Assembly: GCA_022484595.1 (NCBI GenBank)
Contig: JAKVLB010000010.1
Span: 1-55,567 of the forward strand
Length of the DNA: 55,567 nt
Source: Mageeibacillus sp.
GTDB taxonomy: Bacteria > Bacillota > Clostridia > Saccharofermentanales > Saccharofermentanaceae
Reading direction: 5' to 3'
Shown here one piece after another: positions 43,119 through 49,272 of the stretch. The stretch's first letter is position 1. Each line of letters opens with the position of its first letter. The position numbers and the translations under genes were made by a program. Below the pieces are notes generated by a model, which was not told where the DNA came from, made no database searches, and saw nothing but the letters and a program-made list of their open reading frames with translations.

Positions 43119-43467
43119 TGCTGTATCCTCCATAATGTCCGAAGACTTTCCACACGTGAATAATATCATCGTACATGACACGCAAATTGCAGAAATTCGA
43201 TTTTAATTTACTATTGTTTTCGCTAATTTTATACAGAATGTATTTTAAGCTCATACTGCGCTTTCGCACCGGAAATTATCCTCTTGAAAAATTGAAGACA
43301 CTATATTAAACTTCTTGCGTATGGAAATCAGACGAAGTAATGAGTCTTCCATGCAAATATTAATTTCGCAGCATTAATCTGTTGCATTATTGATTGAGTT
43401 TGAAGCTCAAATTTTATAAGTTGGTTACTTTATAACCCTTGTGCGTATGCACTTACAACTTGTGAAA
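43119..43467. other. AT-rich intergenic region with several hairpins
   Basis: No gene is seen. From 43315 on it contains a hairpin TTGC-ATGGAA/TTCCAT-GCAA (43315-43356), ATTAAT/ATTAAT (about 43359-43378), TTGAG/CTCAA (43395-43411), and a compact three-way-junction candidate: ATAAGTTG/CAACTTGT (43416-43463) enclosing GGTTA/TAACC and GTGC-GTAT-GCAC. These could be part of a longer leader or an independent RNA. Confidence 0.45.
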
Positions 43468-43495
43468 TGGTCAATAAGAGTAGTAAAAGTAATAT
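43468..43495 (+). promoter_or_regulatory. Candidate promoter of the polyamine operon
   Basis: TGGTCA, 16-nt spacer, TAATAT. The predicted start is at about 43502, exactly at the 5' edge of the leader RNA structure. Confidence 0.45.
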
Positions 43496-43501
43496 TTGCT
43501 A

Positions 43502-43593
43502 TATAGACTCTGATATAACGTCTGGGAAACCAATGCCGGTTTTGAGGCATCGGCTGCAGCTATAGAATCGTTAAAGCACGGGTGTGAGTCTAT
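43502..43593 (+). ncRNA. Candidate riboswitch-type leader of the polyamine operon
   Basis: Long-range helix P1 pairs ATAGACTC (43503-43510) with GAGTCTAT (43586-43593). Inside it TAACG (43516-43520) pairs with CGTTA (43569-43573), and within that CC-ATGCC/GGCAT-GG (43530-43553) forms a hairpin with a GGTTTTGA loop. The 5' arm of the downstream terminator lies inside P1 and its 3' arm outside, so the two folds exclude each other. This is the layout of an aptamer that prevents termination. It matches none of the riboswitch consensus sequences I know; the ligand is unknown, with polyamines, arginine or SAM-related compounds suggested only by context. Confidence 0.5.
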
Positions 43594-43620
43594 GTACTTG
43601 CTTGACCCCGTGCTTTTTTT
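43573..43620 (+). terminator. Leader terminator of the polyamine operon
   Basis: AAAGCACGGG/CCCGTGCTTT, 10 bp, with a run of seven T and a 24-nt loop that contains the 3' strand of the leader P1 helix. No gene ends upstream in this direction; it therefore acts as an attenuator. Confidence 0.8.
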
Positions 43621-43710
43621 ATGCAGTAGGGTTAATGCGGTATACGCGCAAAGAATGTCAATAATGCGAAAGAATCTTGCCGTGGATTGTTGTCGGAAAG
43701 GAACACATTA

Positions 43711-45171
43711 ATGACTGATCTTTCGCAGGATAGAGCGCCTATATATGAAGCACTCGAACGGTTCAGAAGAATGCGCGTTGTGCCGTTCGATGTACCGGGT
43801 CATAAACACGGCAGAGGCAATCCGGAGCTTGTAGAGCTTTTAGGAAGCCGATGTGTCGGTATTGATGTAAATTCCATGAAGCCGCTCGATAACCTCTGTC
43901 ATCCGATATCTGTCATTCGTGAATCAGAAGAGCTTGCCGCACAGGCTTTCGGGGCTGCGCATGCATTTCTTATGGTAGGCGGTACAACTTCATGTGTTCA
44001 AAGCATGATTCTTTCAGTCTGCAAACGCGGCGATAAGATTATCCTTCCGCGTAATGTTCACAGAAGTGCTATCAATGCTCTGGTGCTGTGCGGGGCGAAG
44101 CCTGTATACGTTAACCCTGAGGTTGATACTGAGCTTGGAATATCGCTCGGAATGAAGCTTAATCAGGTTAAGAAGGCTATAGAAGAGAATCCTGATGCGG
44201 TTGCTGTTTTCGTGAACAATCCAACTTATTACGGAATATGTTCAGATCTGAAATCGATTGTTCAGATTGCTCACGGTGCAGGAATGAAGGTGCTTGCCGA
44301 TGAGGCGCATGGGACTCATTTCTATTTCGGAGACAATCTTCCGATATGTGCGATGAAGGCCGGAGCCGATATGTCATCAGTAAGTATGCACAAGTCCGGA
44401 GGAAGTCTTACTCAGAGCTCATTTCTTCTTATAAACAATGCGGAGGACGAGGGCTATGTAAGGCAGATTATCAATCTTACGCAGACGACGAGCGCGTCTT
44501 ATCTTCTCCTGTCGAGTCTTGATATATCAAGGCGCAATCTCGCGCTGCGCGGCAAAGAAGAGTTTGCGAGGGTGACGGAGCTTGCGGACTATGCGAGAGA
44601 CGAGATTAATAAAATCGGCGGATATACGGCATTCGGAAGAGAGATTGTAAACGGCGAGAGTATTTTCGACTTTGACGTTACAAAGCTGTCAGTGCATACG
44701 CTTAACATCGGTCTTGCCGGAATAGAGGTTTACGATATTCTGAGGGACGAATATGATATTCAGATTGAGTTCGGAGACCTCGGCAACTGTCTGGCATATC
44801 TGTCGATAGGCGACAGAAAACAGGACGTTGAGCGTCTTGTAAGTGCGTTTGCAGAAGTCAAGAGACGTTTCAGCAAGGGCAGGGCAGGCATGCTGACGCA
44901 GGAATATATTCCTCCTAAAGTTGTACTTACCCCGCAGGCATCATTCTACGCCGATAAGGAAGAACTTGAGCTTGACAAGACTGTCGGAAGAGTCTGTACA
45001 GAATTTGTCATGTGCTATCCGCCGGGAATCCCGATACTTGCGCCGGGAGAAGAAATAACGCCCGATATCATAGACTATATAAAATATGCCAAGGAGAAGG
45101 GGTGCTCAATGACGGGACCCGAAGACCCGCGGATTGAGAAACTCAATGTCATTGCAGGCACTATATATTAA
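43711..45171 (+). CDS. speA: Arginine decarboxylase (Orn/Lys/Arg decarboxylase class I fold, SpeA-type)
   Basis: 486 residues, the size of Bacillus SpeA. PLP enzyme making agmatine from arginine. Seen: VPGHKHGRGNPEL, the PLP-phosphate region MVGGTTSCVQS, FVNNPTYYG, DEAHGTHF, and the PLP lysine in SMHKSGGSLTQSS. The C-terminal domain ends in PPGIPILAPGEEI. Lysine or ornithine are possible substrates of the fold; an agmatinase gene in the operon favours arginine. The ATG at 43711 has GAAAGGA 8 nt upstream. First gene of the polyamine operon, behind an attenuated leader. Confidence 0.9.
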   Translation: MTDLSQDRAPIYEALERFRRMRVVPFDVPGHKHGRGNPELVELLGSRCVGIDVNSMKPLDNLCHPISVIRESEELAAQAFGAAHAFLMVGGTTSCVQSMILSVCKRGDKIILPRNVHRSAINALVLCGAKPVYVNPEVDTELGISLGMKLNQVKKAIEENPDAVAVFVNNPTYYGICSDLKSIVQIAHGAGMKVLADEAHGTHFYFGDNLPICAMKAGADMSSVSMHKSGGSLTQSSFLLINNAEDEGYVRQIINLTQTTSASYLLLSSLDISRRNLALRGKEEFARVTELADYARDEINKIGGYTAFGREIVNGESIFDFDVTKLSVHTLNIGLAGIEVYDILRDEYDIQIEFGDLGNCLAYLSIGDRKQDVERLVSAFAEVKRRFSKGRAGMLTQEYIPPKVVLTPQASFYADKEELELDKTVGRVCTEFVMCYPPGIPILAPGEEITPDIIDYIKYAKEKGCSMTGPEDPRIEKLNVIAGTIY

Positions 45172-45186
45172 GAGGAGAACAGGTTA

Positions 45187-46044
45187 ATGGAAATGGACAT
45201 GTGGTTTTCGGACGAACACACGCCCGATGTGTCTTTGAGAATCAGAATCGACAAGCAGCTGTTCAGCGGCGAGAGTGAGTATCAGCGCATCGACGTTCTG
45301 GACTCAAGGGAGTTCGGCAAGATTCTTGTTGTTGACGGTGATCTTATGATTACTGAGAAGGACGAGTTTATTTATCACGAGATGATGACTCATGTTCCCA
45401 TGGCTGTCCATCCCGCAGTTAGGCGTGTTCTTGTAATCGGCGGCGGCGACGGCGGCGTGGTCAGAGAGCTTATCAAGTATGACGAGATAGAATCCATCGA
45501 TTGTGTCGAGATAGATCCGCTGCTCATAAAGGTTTGTGCCAAATATCTGCCGGAGCTTGCGTGCTCGCTCAATGATGACAGAGTAAGTGTGATAATTGAA
45601 GACGGGCTTAAGTTCATAAGGTCCAGATCCGATGAATACGATCTGATAATAATTGATTCTCCAAATCCTTTCGGAGCCGGTGAAGGATTGTTTACCAAGG
45701 AATTCTACGGCAACTGTTACAACGCTCTTCATGAAGACGGAATAATGATAAATCAGCACGAGAGTCCGTTCTATCAGGAAGAAGCTTTTCAGTGCCAGAG
45801 AATGCACAAGAGAATTCTCGATTCATTCCCGATAAGCCGCATCTATCAGGCGCACATTCCTTCTTATCCATCAGGACACTGGCTGTTCGGCTTTGCATCA
45901 AAAAAATATCATCCTATAGACGACCTGAATGACGCGGAGTGGAAGATGAAGGGAATCAGAACGAGGTATTATCTGCCGCGGATACACAAAGGGGTGTTTG
46001 CCCTGCCGGCTTACGTTGAGGAGCTTGTCAAAGATGTTGAATAA
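45187..46044 (+). CDS. speE: Spermidine synthase (aminopropyltransferase SpeE)
   Basis: 285 residues. Transfers the aminopropyl group of decarboxylated SAM to putrescine. Motifs: the GGG nucleotide loop VIGGGDGGVVREL (about 82-94), IDCVEIDPLLIKV, IIDSPNPFGAGEGLFTKEFY with the catalytic Asp, and QHESPFY. GAGGAGAAC precedes the ATG. Its cosubstrate needs SAM decarboxylase (SpeD), which is not in this window. Its 3' end overlaps speB by 11 nt. Confidence 0.94.
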   Translation: MEMDMWFSDEHTPDVSLRIRIDKQLFSGESEYQRIDVLDSREFGKILVVDGDLMITEKDEFIYHEMMTHVPMAVHPAVRRVLVIGGGDGGVVRELIKYDEIESIDCVEIDPLLIKVCAKYLPELACSLNDDRVSVIIEDGLKFIRSRSDEYDLIIIDSPNPFGAGEGLFTKEFYGNCYNALHEDGIMINQHESPFYQEEAFQCQRMHKRILDSFPISRIYQAHIPSYPSGHWLFGFASKKYHPIDDLNDAEWKMKGIRTRYYLPRIHKGVFALPAYVEELVKDVE

Positions 46045-46909
46045 GAATGTTGTAAATTTTATAGGGTGCGACGCAGAGTACGATGAGTCATCCGTGGTGC
46101 TTTTCGGAGTTCCGTTTGACTCTACGACTTCATTCAGACCCGGCGCCAGGTTCGGGCCTTCCGCAGCGCGAAATGAGTCATACGGTATTGAGACATACAG
46201 CCCTTATCTTGATGAAGAGCTGACTGATTTCAAAGTTTTCGACAGCGGAGATCTTGAACTTCCCATAGGTGACAGCAGAATGGTTCTCGACATGATTGAA
46301 GAGCGCGAAAAGGCGATACTCGATTCATCGAAACTTCCGTTTATGGTAGGCGGCGAACATCTTGTGACGCTCGGCGCTATCAGGGCGGTCGCGGCAAAAT
46401 ACCCGGATGTTAACATTATTCATTTCGATGCTCACGCCGATCTGAGACAGGATTATCTGGGCGTTGAACTGTCACATGCCTGCGTAATGAGGCGCGCGAG
46501 CGAACTTCTTGGCAAGGGCAGGATATACCAGTTCGGAATCAGATCCGGAGATAAGTCGGAATTTGTCAGAGACGACGATGACAAGAAGCGGATAGTCACA
46601 ACAAGATTCGGATTCGAAGGACTCGATAACACCGTAAAGGAGCTTGCCGGCAAGCCGGTGTATTTCTCGCTTGATCTGGATATTCTGGATCCTTCGATAC
46701 TTCCGGGTACCGGAACGCCTGAGGCCGGCGGAGTCGGATTTATTGTTTTGCTGAGGGCGATAGAGACAATATTCGCCGGAAACGCCGAGATTGTGGGTAT
46801 GGATGTCTGTGAACTCGCACCAAATCTTGATCCGAGCGGAGTCTCAACGGCGGTTACATGCAAGTTAATAAGGGAGATGCTTCTCGGCTATCTCTCAAAA
46901 AACAAATAA
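46034..46909 (+). CDS. speB: Agmatinase (ureohydrolase family)
   Basis: 291 residues. Splits agmatine into putrescine and urea. Mn2+ ligands are in GGEH, DAHADLR and SLDLDILDPS; GTGTPEAGG is the family's C-terminal signature. The ATG at 46034 lies inside the end of speE with GAGGAG 9 nt upstream. Directly complements the arginine decarboxylase. Confidence 0.95.
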   Translation: MLNKNVVNFIGCDAEYDESSVVLFGVPFDSTTSFRPGARFGPSAARNESYGIETYSPYLDEELTDFKVFDSGDLELPIGDSRMVLDMIEEREKAILDSSKLPFMVGGEHLVTLGAIRAVAAKYPDVNIIHFDAHADLRQDYLGVELSHACVMRRASELLGKGRIYQFGIRSGDKSEFVRDDDDKKRIVTTRFGFEGLDNTVKELAGKPVYFSLDLDILDPSILPGTGTPEAGGVGFIVLLRAIETIFAGNAEIVGMDVCELAPNLDPSGVSTAVTCKLIREMLLGYLSKNK

Positions 46910-46921
46910 GGAGAACGACAG

Positions 46922-48124
46922 ATGGGAAGATGTTTGATTATCGGATGCGGCGGCGTAGCAAGCGTTGCAATTCACAAGTGCTGTATGAACAGCAGGGTGT
47001 TTGAAGAGATATGTATCGCAAGCAGGACAAAATCAAAGTGTGACGCGCTAAAGGAGAAGCTTGAGCCTGTCACTGATACTGTTATTACTACGGCACAGGT
47101 AAATGCTGACAATACGGACGAACTTATAACACTTATCAAGGCGTATGATCCTGATGCCGTGCTCAACCTTGCGCTGCCTTACCAGGATCTTACGATAATG
47201 GATGCATGTCTTGCGACAGGAAAGCACTACATCGACACAGCCAATTATGAGCCTGAAGACACCGCCAAATTCGAATACAAGTGGCAGTGGGCTTATCGCG
47301 ACAGATTTGAGAAGGCCAACATTACGGCAGTTCTCGGCAGCGGTTTTGATCCCGGCGTAACTTCCGTGTTTACGGCTTATGCACTGAAACACTATTTCGA
47401 TGAGATCAATTACATCGACATACTTGACTGCAACGGCGGAGACCACGGTTATCCGTTCGCCACGAACTTCAATCCTGAGATAAATATCCGTGAGGTCTCA
47501 GCGAAAGGTTCATATTGGGAGGACGGTCACTGGGTCGAGACAGAGCCTCTTGAAATCAAGCGTGAATATGATTTTCCCCAGGTGGGCGTCAAAGATATGT
47601 ATCTGCTTCATCACGAGGAGATTGAGTCTCTCGCTGTCAACATTCCCGGAATTAAGAGAATAAGGTTTTTTATGACATTCGGACAGAGCTATCTTACTCA
47701 TCTCAAGTGTCTCGAGAACGTCGGAATGACATCAATAGAGCCTATTATGTTTGAGGGCAGGGAGATTGTGCCGCTCAAATTTCTCAATGCGGTGCTTCCG
47801 GATCCGGCTTCCCTGGGTCCGCGCACCAAAGGCAAGACCAATATCGGCTGCATCTTCACCGGCGTAAAGGACGGAAAGACAAAGACCATATATATATATA
47901 ATGTTTGCGACCATCAGGAGTGCTACCGTGAGTTAGGTTCTCAGGCTGTGGCCTATACGACCGGAGTTCCGGCTATGATCGGTACATCTATGGTACTCAG
48001 CGGCAAGTGGAATAAACCCGGAGTGTATACCGTTGAAGAATTTGATCCGGATCCTTTCATGGATGCCCTGAACAAGTGGGGTCTGCCATGGATTGTTGAC
48101 GAGAATCCGAAGACGGTACAGTGA
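46922..48124 (+). CDS. Carboxy(nor)spermidine dehydrogenase (saccharopine dehydrogenase family)
   Basis: 400 residues. Condenses a diamine with aspartate semialdehyde and reduces the imine to carboxy(nor)spermidine. N-terminal Rossmann LIIGCGGVASVAIHKC, then DTANYEPED and LGSGFDPGVTSVFTAYALKHYF, characteristic of CANSDH/CASDH. With putrescine from the upstream genes, carboxyspermidine is the expected product. GGAGAAC precedes the ATG; ends in a GTGA overlap with the decarboxylase gene. Confidence 0.92.
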   Translation: MGRCLIIGCGGVASVAIHKCCMNSRVFEEICIASRTKSKCDALKEKLEPVTDTVITTAQVNADNTDELITLIKAYDPDAVLNLALPYQDLTIMDACLATGKHYIDTANYEPEDTAKFEYKWQWAYRDRFEKANITAVLGSGFDPGVTSVFTAYALKHYFDEINYIDILDCNGGDHGYPFATNFNPEINIREVSAKGSYWEDGHWVETEPLEIKREYDFPQVGVKDMYLLHHEEIESLAVNIPGIKRIRFFMTFGQSYLTHLKCLENVGMTSIEPIMFEGREIVPLKFLNAVLPDPASLGPRTKGKTNIGCIFTGVKDGKTKTIYIYNVCDHQECYRELGSQAVAYTTGVPAMIGTSMVLSGKWNKPGVYTVEEFDPDPFMDALNKWGLPWIVDENPKTVQ

Positions 48125-49272
48125 CGGAAGCCATGAACATAAAAGAACTTAGAACTCCGTGCTACATAATTGACGAGGACGGACTGAAGGCCAATCTTGC
48201 GATATTGGACAACCTTCGGCATAAGACCGGATGCAGGATTCTGCTCGCGCAGAAAGCTTTCAGTATCTACCAGCTCTATGATCTGATGGGACAGTATCTT
48301 GACGGCACCACGGCAAGCGGTCTGTATGAAGCGAGGCTTGCTCATGAGTATATGCCCGAAGGCGAAAATCATGTGTTCTCACCGGCATACAGACCCGGAG
48401 AGATAGATGATATCTTAAGCTTATGCAACCATATTGTATTCAACTCTGAAAAACAGCTTGAACTATACGGCGCAAGGGCTGCCAAATCCGGCGCGAGTGT
48501 CGGCATACGCGTCAACCCTGAGTGTCAGACGCAGGAAGGTCACGTTATTTATGACCCGTGCGCGCCTATGTCAAGACTTGGTATTACGGCTGACAACATG
48601 CCGGAGAGACTTCCGGATTATGTCGAAGGCATTCATTTCCATACGCTGTGCGAACAGAATTCCGACAGCCTCGCCAGAACGCTGGACGCTGTAATCAGCC
48701 GTTTCGGACGCTATCTTGACGGCTCCTCAGGCGGATCGGTCAAGTGGATCAACCTTGGCGGAGGTCATCATATCACGCGCCCTGACTATGATATTGCTCT
48801 TCTTGAGGAGCTTATATTCAAACTCAAAGACAAGTATCACCTGGAAGTCTATCTTGAACCGGGTGAGGCCGTGGCGCTCAATTGCGGAACTTTGCTTACA
48901 ACCGTGCTTGAGACCGGTTACAACGGAGGAAATATTGCAGTAATAGATGCATCTGCGGCGTGCCATATGCCTGACGTAATTGAGATGCCTTACCGGCCGC
49001 CGCTTAAGGACTCTGATCTGCCCGGAAAGAAGGCATACACCTACCGTCTCGGAGGACCGTCCTGTCTTGCGGGAGATATAGCAGGCGATTATTCATTTGA
49101 CAGAAAGCTTGCTGCCGGCGATCTTCTTGAATTTGAAGATATGGCCATATATACGATGGTCAAGACAAATACTTTTAACGGAATCGCGCTTCCTGACATA
49201 TATCTCAAGCGAGGCGACGAATACTCCATAATCAGACAGTTCGGCTATGAAGACTTTAAATCGAGACTGTGA
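48121..49272 (+). CDS. nspC: Carboxy(nor)spermidine decarboxylase (NspC)
   Basis: 383 residues. PLP-dependent alanine-racemase-fold decarboxylase converting carboxyspermidine to spermidine (or the nor form). The PLP lysine is in LLAQKAFS (about Lys44), GIHFHTLCEQN and INLGGGHHITRPDY follow, and ACHMPDVIEMPYRP and the C-terminal GPSCLAGD with the active-site Cys are typical of NspC. I give GTG 48121, which overlaps the previous stop; ATG 48133 is an alternative that fits the family start equally well. Confidence 0.93.
   Translation: MTEAMNIKELRTPCYIIDEDGLKANLAILDNLRHKTGCRILLAQKAFSIYQLYDLMGQYLDGTTASGLYEARLAHEYMPEGENHVFSPAYRPGEIDDILSLCNHIVFNSEKQLELYGARAAKSGASVGIRVNPECQTQEGHVIYDPCAPMSRLGITADNMPERLPDYVEGIHFHTLCEQNSDSLARTLDAVISRFGRYLDGSSGGSVKWINLGGGHHITRPDYDIALLEELIFKLKDKYHLEVYLEPGEAVALNCGTLLTTVLETGYNGGNIAVIDASAACHMPDVIEMPYRPPLKDSDLPGKKAYTYRLGGPSCLAGDIAGDYSFDRKLAAGDLLEFEDMAIYTMVKTNTFNGIALPDIYLKRGDEYSIIRQFGYEDFKSRL

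Follow-up and report, generated by a model that had tools for sequence, protein, structure and literature searches.

A conserved leader RNA of a Mageeibacillus polyamine operon, related to SpF59/ldcC and probably a polyamine OFF riboswitch

The window, that is, the whole 55,567-nt stretch of Mageeibacillus sp. contig JAKVLB010000010.1 analyzed here, contains a polyamine operon on the forward strand, and all window features described below lie on this strand. The first gene (43711–45171) encodes an Orn/Lys/Arg decarboxylase of the speA type, whose NCBIfam matches are far below the cut-offs, no NCBIfam name being assigned to the protein at these cut-offs. It is followed by speE, the genes for agmatinase and a carboxynorspermidine synthase-like protein, and nspC (together 45187–49272). 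The speE, agmatinase and nspC products score above the NCBIfam cut-offs, and the carboxynorspermidine synthase match reaches 396 bits vs. the cut-off of 800.

Upstream of the operon, a candidate promoter TTGAAA–17–TAAACT is found at 43284–43312, with nine of twelve positions matching the consensus, and the transcription start is inferred to be near 43318. Promoter-like sites of this kind are no more common than expected by chance (two found, the mean in shuffled sequences being 2.1); the spacing between the candidate promoter and the 5′ hairpin that follows resembles, by eye, that of promoter-like boxes in two related leaders (L163 and L176). The segment 43480–43516 was also considered as an extended –10 promoter, which would have left the helix of the preliminary description (see below) untranscribed; this candidate was dropped because the segment belongs to a long conserved leader, of which it is the 3′ end.

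The leader opens with a 5′ hairpin (43321–43352) formed by AUGGA (43321–43325) and UCCAU (43348–43352), which is predicted for the nascent transcript and has the same layout in relatives. Its loop contains the 5′ strands of helices P1a and P1b, and hence the hairpin competes with both. These helices are parts of a composite P1, which closes the conserved core by pairing of the 5′ domain with the segment immediately 3′ of it: P1a is formed by UCAGACG (43328–43334) and CGUCUGG (43519–43525; seven pairs), P1b by GAGUCU (43342–43347) and AGACUC (43505–43510; six pairs), and P1c by GCAAAUAUUA (43353–43362) and 43490–43499 (ten pairs). A small hairpin GCAGCA/UGUUGC (43368–43385) occupies the site where long relatives have the module described by the Rfam family RF02440 and a hairpin. 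The conserved core itself (43388–43511; model R1) was delineated in a 60-sequence alignment, which yielded helices P2 (43388–43394/43470–43476), P3 (43395–43399/43405–43409), P4 (43412–43422/43457–43467), P5 (43423–43427/43433–43437) and P6 (43441–43444/43449–43452), as well as a conserved stretch, AAGAGUAGUAAAAGUA, at 43476–43491. According to pair counts and predicted pairs, the 3′ strands of P1c and P1b are located at 43490–43511. Pair counts also indicate an alternative local helix P7 (43481–43487/43495–43501, with a base at 43477–43480/43508–43511), which conflicts with P1b and P1c; the base pairs of P7 fit equally well.

Further downstream, pairing and a terminator scan identify an intrinsic terminator (43573–43582/43607–43616), with ten pairs in the window sequence and a T run after the second arm, just as the preliminary description had it. 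Two more segments are of interest here. CACGGGU (43577–43583) is a potential partner of the 3′ strand of P4, ACUUGUG (43458–43464), an antiterminator of the family type that is weak in the window, and GAGUCUAU (43586–43593) is the partner of 43503–43510 in a helix that we read as an antiterminator.

The core is widely distributed. With R1, it was found in 43 of 115 genomes of the family, 47 of 391 genomes of the class and 24 of 398 genomes of the phylum, and a pattern scan of named genomes yielded at least 120 loci. Among the matches listed are Paenibacillus, Bacillus, Neobacillus, many clostridial MAGs, and Phascolarctobacterium (Negativicutes), so that the core spreads over Clostridia, Bacilli and Negativicutes. 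A DNA search in the family produced 29 loci of the same genus (L003–L031), all with a speA-type gene downstream (75–77% identity), and in their alignment conservation extends about 200 nt upstream of 43480. The same search with the 3′ part alone matched only about 37 bases, in members of the genus, because the query started within the core. The conservation upstream of related operons expected in the preliminary description is thus seen, and it is strong. For comparative tests, 181 hits less the copy of the window itself (L001) gave 180; exclusion of L011 and of leaders without usable segments left 162, and reduction at 0.88 similarity, 100 non-redundant leaders, a number that does not represent an independent sample, as the loci were picked by similarity.

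First genes were recorded for 94 of these 100 leaders: 44 are of the speA type, 19 of the PotA type, 18 of the SpeD type and 11 of the carboxynorspermidine-synthase type, and two have no assignment. NCBIfam searches with representatives gave PotA (L032, L144, L159), adenosylmethionine decarboxylase (L038) and, below the cut-off, carboxynorspermidine synthase (L043). As one and the same element precedes importers and biosynthetic enzymes, this gene content suggests that the ligand would be a polyamine, the product common to them, and not arginine, agmatine or SAM.

The core alignment comprises 60 of 64 chosen cores, four (L051, L060, L098 and L180) having been dropped for odd lengths or ends. 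The core spans 123 positions, and 32 of the 145 alignment columns are invariant. Pairing of P2–P7 is retained in 92.0% of cells and falls to 38–45% if the partners are slid by 1–3 columns. Two-sided changes are observed at 13 pairs vs. the shuffled mean of 6.5 (0/500). They are confined to P3, P5, P6 and P7; P2, P4 and the P7 base are nearly invariant, have no two-sided changes and are therefore neither supported nor opposed. RNAalifold alone recovers only P2–P4, with one two-sided pair of 24. The R1 score of the window is 134 bits, which is not independent, the window being one of the 60 model rows. The stretch AAGAGUAGUAAAAGUA is kept in most of the 60 cores, though parts of it are predicted to be unpaired, and it is likely a site of ligand or tertiary contacts, judging by this conservation.

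Several cores are enlarged or interrupted. The P3 hairpin of L242 (genome G048, from the genus of the window) is longer by about 25 nt in the apical loop. In L254 (G411, complement strand), the core is split in the apical part of P6 by an inserted segment that has terminal inverted repeats and measures about 275 bp, and the downstream gene starts like PotA. The cores at L246–L249 (G102, G104, G106 and G107), in another genus of the family, are diverged, scoring about 45 bits, and their P3 and P6 are enlarged; the next gene there reads like adenosylmethionine decarboxylase.

The composite P1 was assessed by comparing the pairing of strands from the same locus with pairing across loci. In the 100 non-redundant loci, the P1 duplex has –20.5 kcal/mol for self pairs vs. 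–16.5 kcal/mol for cross-locus pairs (0/2000 permutations); locus by locus, no more than 34 of the 100 have a P1 that ranks within the top tenth of cross pairings, and base composition is uncontrolled in this comparison. P1c alone shows the same tendency (–8.9 vs. –7.2 kcal/mol, 0/5000 permutations, n = 100).

The leader is linked to Rfam family RF02440 (SpF59_sRNA, glossed as “ldcC RNA” and classed as an sRNA gene). All eight relatives tested match RF02440 with 61–71 bits, the match lying between the 5′ domain and the core, where it covers 54 nt and leaves the core, P1 and the expression platform outside. The window has no RF02440 match at the gathering score (37.2 bits), nor any at E up to 10. 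Other Rfam families matched the window leader at E up to 10 far below their cut-offs at best, and the matches to L20_leader (15.3 bits, cut-off 58.7) and DLEU2_2 (21.7 bits, cut-off 45) were taken as chance. This agrees with the absence of known riboswitch classes claimed from the letters alone: no Rfam riboswitch family matches the window leader. A hit to a known Rfam family, named in the preliminary description as a refuting outcome, is absent for the window and present for its relatives, which match RF02440.

The window leader shares the 5′ domain, the 123-position core and P1 with the leaders that bear RF02440, which also have their module between the 5′ domain and the core and precede the same kinds of genes; the difference is that the window is devoid of the 54-nt module. 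The same short layout is seen at 21 other loci, and all 22 are therefore missed by Rfam. These 22 short leaders, the window included, were picked by eye and then checked against Rfam, none of the other 21 reaching the RF02440 cut-off. Two of the short leaders (L124 and L144) retain a small extra hairpin, and fifteen further leaders have, by eye, an altered RF02440 module. L166 has neither the 5′ domain nor the RF02440 module, its promoter-like box being located just before the core; it may be a minimal form or an artefact of the MAG.

Of the 391 genomes of the class sample, 41 have RF02440, 40 of these over the cut-off, 47 have the core, and 40 have both. Annotation by RF02440 overlooks the seven remaining genomes with the core (G000, G047, G147, G191, G204, G305 and G411). 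In G204, G305 and perhaps G191 the module seems degenerate, and in G411 the leader is interrupted; G356 has only a partial RF02440 match at a contig end. The window leader looks like a shortened, formerly unrecognised, module-less variant of the known SpF59/ldcC leader, the module having apparently been lost from its lineage or never having been there.

Terminators are a general feature of these leaders. Of the 100 leaders, 93 have one downstream of the core according to an automated scan, vs. 14, 7 and 11 in three shuffled sets, the 93 including L144, where the terminator is inside a gene and probably spurious. In 93 loci, the terminator 5′ arm pairs with the P4 strand of the core better in self than in cross-locus combinations (–13.4 vs. 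–10.7 kcal/mol, 0/5000). Shuffled arms give –6.9 kcal/mol, and a control core segment yields no difference (–4.70 vs. –4.61). As the P4 strand pairs with the terminator 5′ arm, in the family the sensor itself would supply the antiterminator. The window departs from this pattern: its P4-type pairing (43458–43464/43577–43583) has –8.3 kcal/mol, and this arm pairs equally stably in 0.90 of its cross-locus combinations.

The helix on which the preliminary description was centered is real. Segments 43503–43510 (ATAGACTC) and 43586–43593 (GAGTCTAT) form eight Watson-Crick pairs, and of 5000 shuffled versions of the downstream part, 2 contain an exact complement of ATAGACTC. For an 8-bp Watson-Crick helix of any kind, dinucleotide shuffling of the 119 nt gave one or more in 87 of 2000 trials, and the overall folding energy of the 131-nt stretch is ordinary (z = –1.22, 25 of 200 shuffles being equally good). 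The claimed exclusion of this helix and the terminator is borne out by the predicted ensembles: the mean pair probability of the helix is 0.58 in the RNA ending at 43600 and 0.0 in the RNA extended to 43622, where the terminator has 0.94. In the energy model the two are thus mutually exclusive as nested structures.

The helix has no family-wide counterpart. In 93 non-redundant leaders, the strand corresponding to 43503–43510 pairs with its own downstream region and across loci with the same –5.51 kcal/mol (1017/2000 permutations), the window scoring the strongest of the 93, and so we reject it as a family-wide antiterminator; where the preliminary description looked for covariation in P1, these leaders give no family-wide pairing signal. 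In the conserved architecture its 5′ strand pairs with 43342–43347 instead, and the helix would represent the alternative, antiterminating state. It is probably an antiterminator at the 3′ end of the leader of about 300 nt starting near 43318, and likely a better candidate for this role in the window than the weak P4-type pairing.

Predicted folding energies of the window leader agree with such a role. In the RNA ending at 43600, the P1 state (–74.5 kcal/mol) and the state with the 43503–43510/43586–43593 helix (–74.9) differ by 0.4 kcal/mol, with pair probabilities of about 0.4 and 0.58, respectively. In the RNA ending at 43622, the minimum combines P1 and the terminator (–90.3 kcal/mol), with probabilities of 0.99 for P1 and 0.94 for the terminator. 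These values are the output of an energy model to which ligand, pseudoknots and kinetics are external; within it, two nearly equal states followed by P1 plus the terminator make up the balance expected of a switch.

The sequence thus shows that the leader combines a conserved core with a composite P1, that a terminator precedes the first gene, and that genes of polyamine synthesis and import are associated with the element; an aptamer-like conserved core is thus combined with a mutually exclusive expression platform, as in riboswitches. We therefore interpret 43318–43620 as a cis-acting transcription-attenuation RNA, probably a polyamine OFF riboswitch related by descent to SpF59/ldcC, with a rough probability of 0.6. 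Under this interpretation, a polyamine (most likely spermidine, with putrescine next, as we infer) would bind the core, the bound core would hold P1 and P4, and the terminator would form and stop transcription. When polyamines are scarce, one of the aptamer strands would pair downstream and block the terminator. In most relatives with a detectable terminator this would be the 3′ strand of P4, acting on the terminator 5′ arm, and in the window, the likely antiterminator 43503–43510/43586–43593 would remove the P1b strand.

The same attenuating leader might also have its core bound by a protein or another macromolecule instead of a small molecule. The high conservation over 123 positions, with 32 of 145 columns invariant, would suit a protein site, and the polyamine ligand is deduced from the genes only. 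However, these genes are responsible for synthesis and import of one metabolite family, as is the case for metabolite riboswitches, with transporters included in other lineages, and in a fold made of several helices the deepest constraint is seen at the junctions and in internal stretches, so that we consider this variant rather unlikely.

Still less probable is a trans-acting sRNA with the terminated transcript as the functional product. Rfam classes RF02440 as an sRNA gene, and relatives were first catalogued in pneumococcus, where F59 (also SN20 and srn235) is described as a transcript between SP0915 and SP0916, the latter, directly after F59, being an arginine decarboxylase gene. In our set, however, the leader immediately precedes polyamine genes in a single orientation, separated from them by the terminator, and it has strands that pair with the arm of this terminator, as expected of a cis-regulator. 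A consensus of the ldcC motif was reportedly published by Weinberg et al. in 2017. Our literature search, for which subscription papers were mostly beyond reach, found no paper that describes what the SpF59/ldcC leader does.

The original model, in which 43503–43593 is the aptamer and the ligand turns the operon on, has slightly lower odds again. The 8-bp helix exists, is improbable for its strand (2/5000) and excludes the terminator, but its interior (43511–43585) is not conserved in relatives, whereas the upstream core is, and the strand 43503–43510 has a conserved upstream partner, while the helix itself has no signal in the family. The aptamer-like fold that had been placed at 43502–43600 is probably located upstream, at 43321–43525, the former coordinates including no more of the element than its 3′ end, and the sign of the regulation is probably the reverse of that proposed, the ligand favouring termination, though the sequence would also be compatible with an ON switch. 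The more general claim is supported, namely, that the polyamine operon has a structured leader which acts in cis, is controlled by a terminator and adopts folds that exclude one another. As for a new metabolite sensor, the idea of a polyamine-related switch was a good one, and the novelty is partial, since relatives carry RF02440 in the same leader. Finally, attenuation by a leader peptide, with a short ORF starting, e.g., at the AUG in CCAUGCAAAUAUU, which is present in the window and a part of relatives, was rejected as highly improbable, since an ATG overlaps the CCAUGCAAAUAUU anchor in just 20 of 60 leaders with the anchor found and so is not a common feature.

Returning to the polyamine OFF riboswitch, the leader can be compared with known polyamine RNAs. 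The one validated spermidine riboswitch (PMC10853860) is an OFF switch derived from SAM-I, of which 13 representatives are reported from several genera of Bacilli and metagenomic DNA, and the same paper states that further polyamine riboswitch classes must remain undiscovered. Both RNAs are associated with polyamine genes and terminate transcription as OFF switches, which for the window leader is our proposal; the difference is that the core described here occurs across Clostridia, Bacilli and Negativicutes. Moreover, Rfam models yield no SAM-I family match in the window and detect no four-stem aptamer of the SAM-I type in the leader. The odc1 and potE motifs (PMC8632094) are also candidate RNA elements at polyamine-related genes; as described in that source, they are linked to other genes, odc1 contains an ORF, and potE has no expression platform.

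We give about even odds to a broader interpretation, namely, that these leaders constitute a widespread class of polyamine (spermidine or putrescine) riboswitches unrelated to the spermidine switch derived from SAM-I. The sensor of such a class would be the 123-position core with P1, the 54-nt module would be an optional accessory domain, and one sensor strand would double as the antiterminator; the class would control polyamine synthesis and import in many Bacillota. The leader is widespread, and the genes next to it serve a single metabolite family in both synthesis and import, which makes it a strong candidate for a further polyamine riboswitch class. The core is now separated from the module modelled in Rfam, and the candidate switch is concrete, setting a P1 or P4 strand against the terminator arm; the short natural leaders are convenient for probing and make the ligand question directly testable. 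For the bacteria that carry it, the leader RNA would probably serve to shut off both the production and the import of polyamines when these are plentiful.
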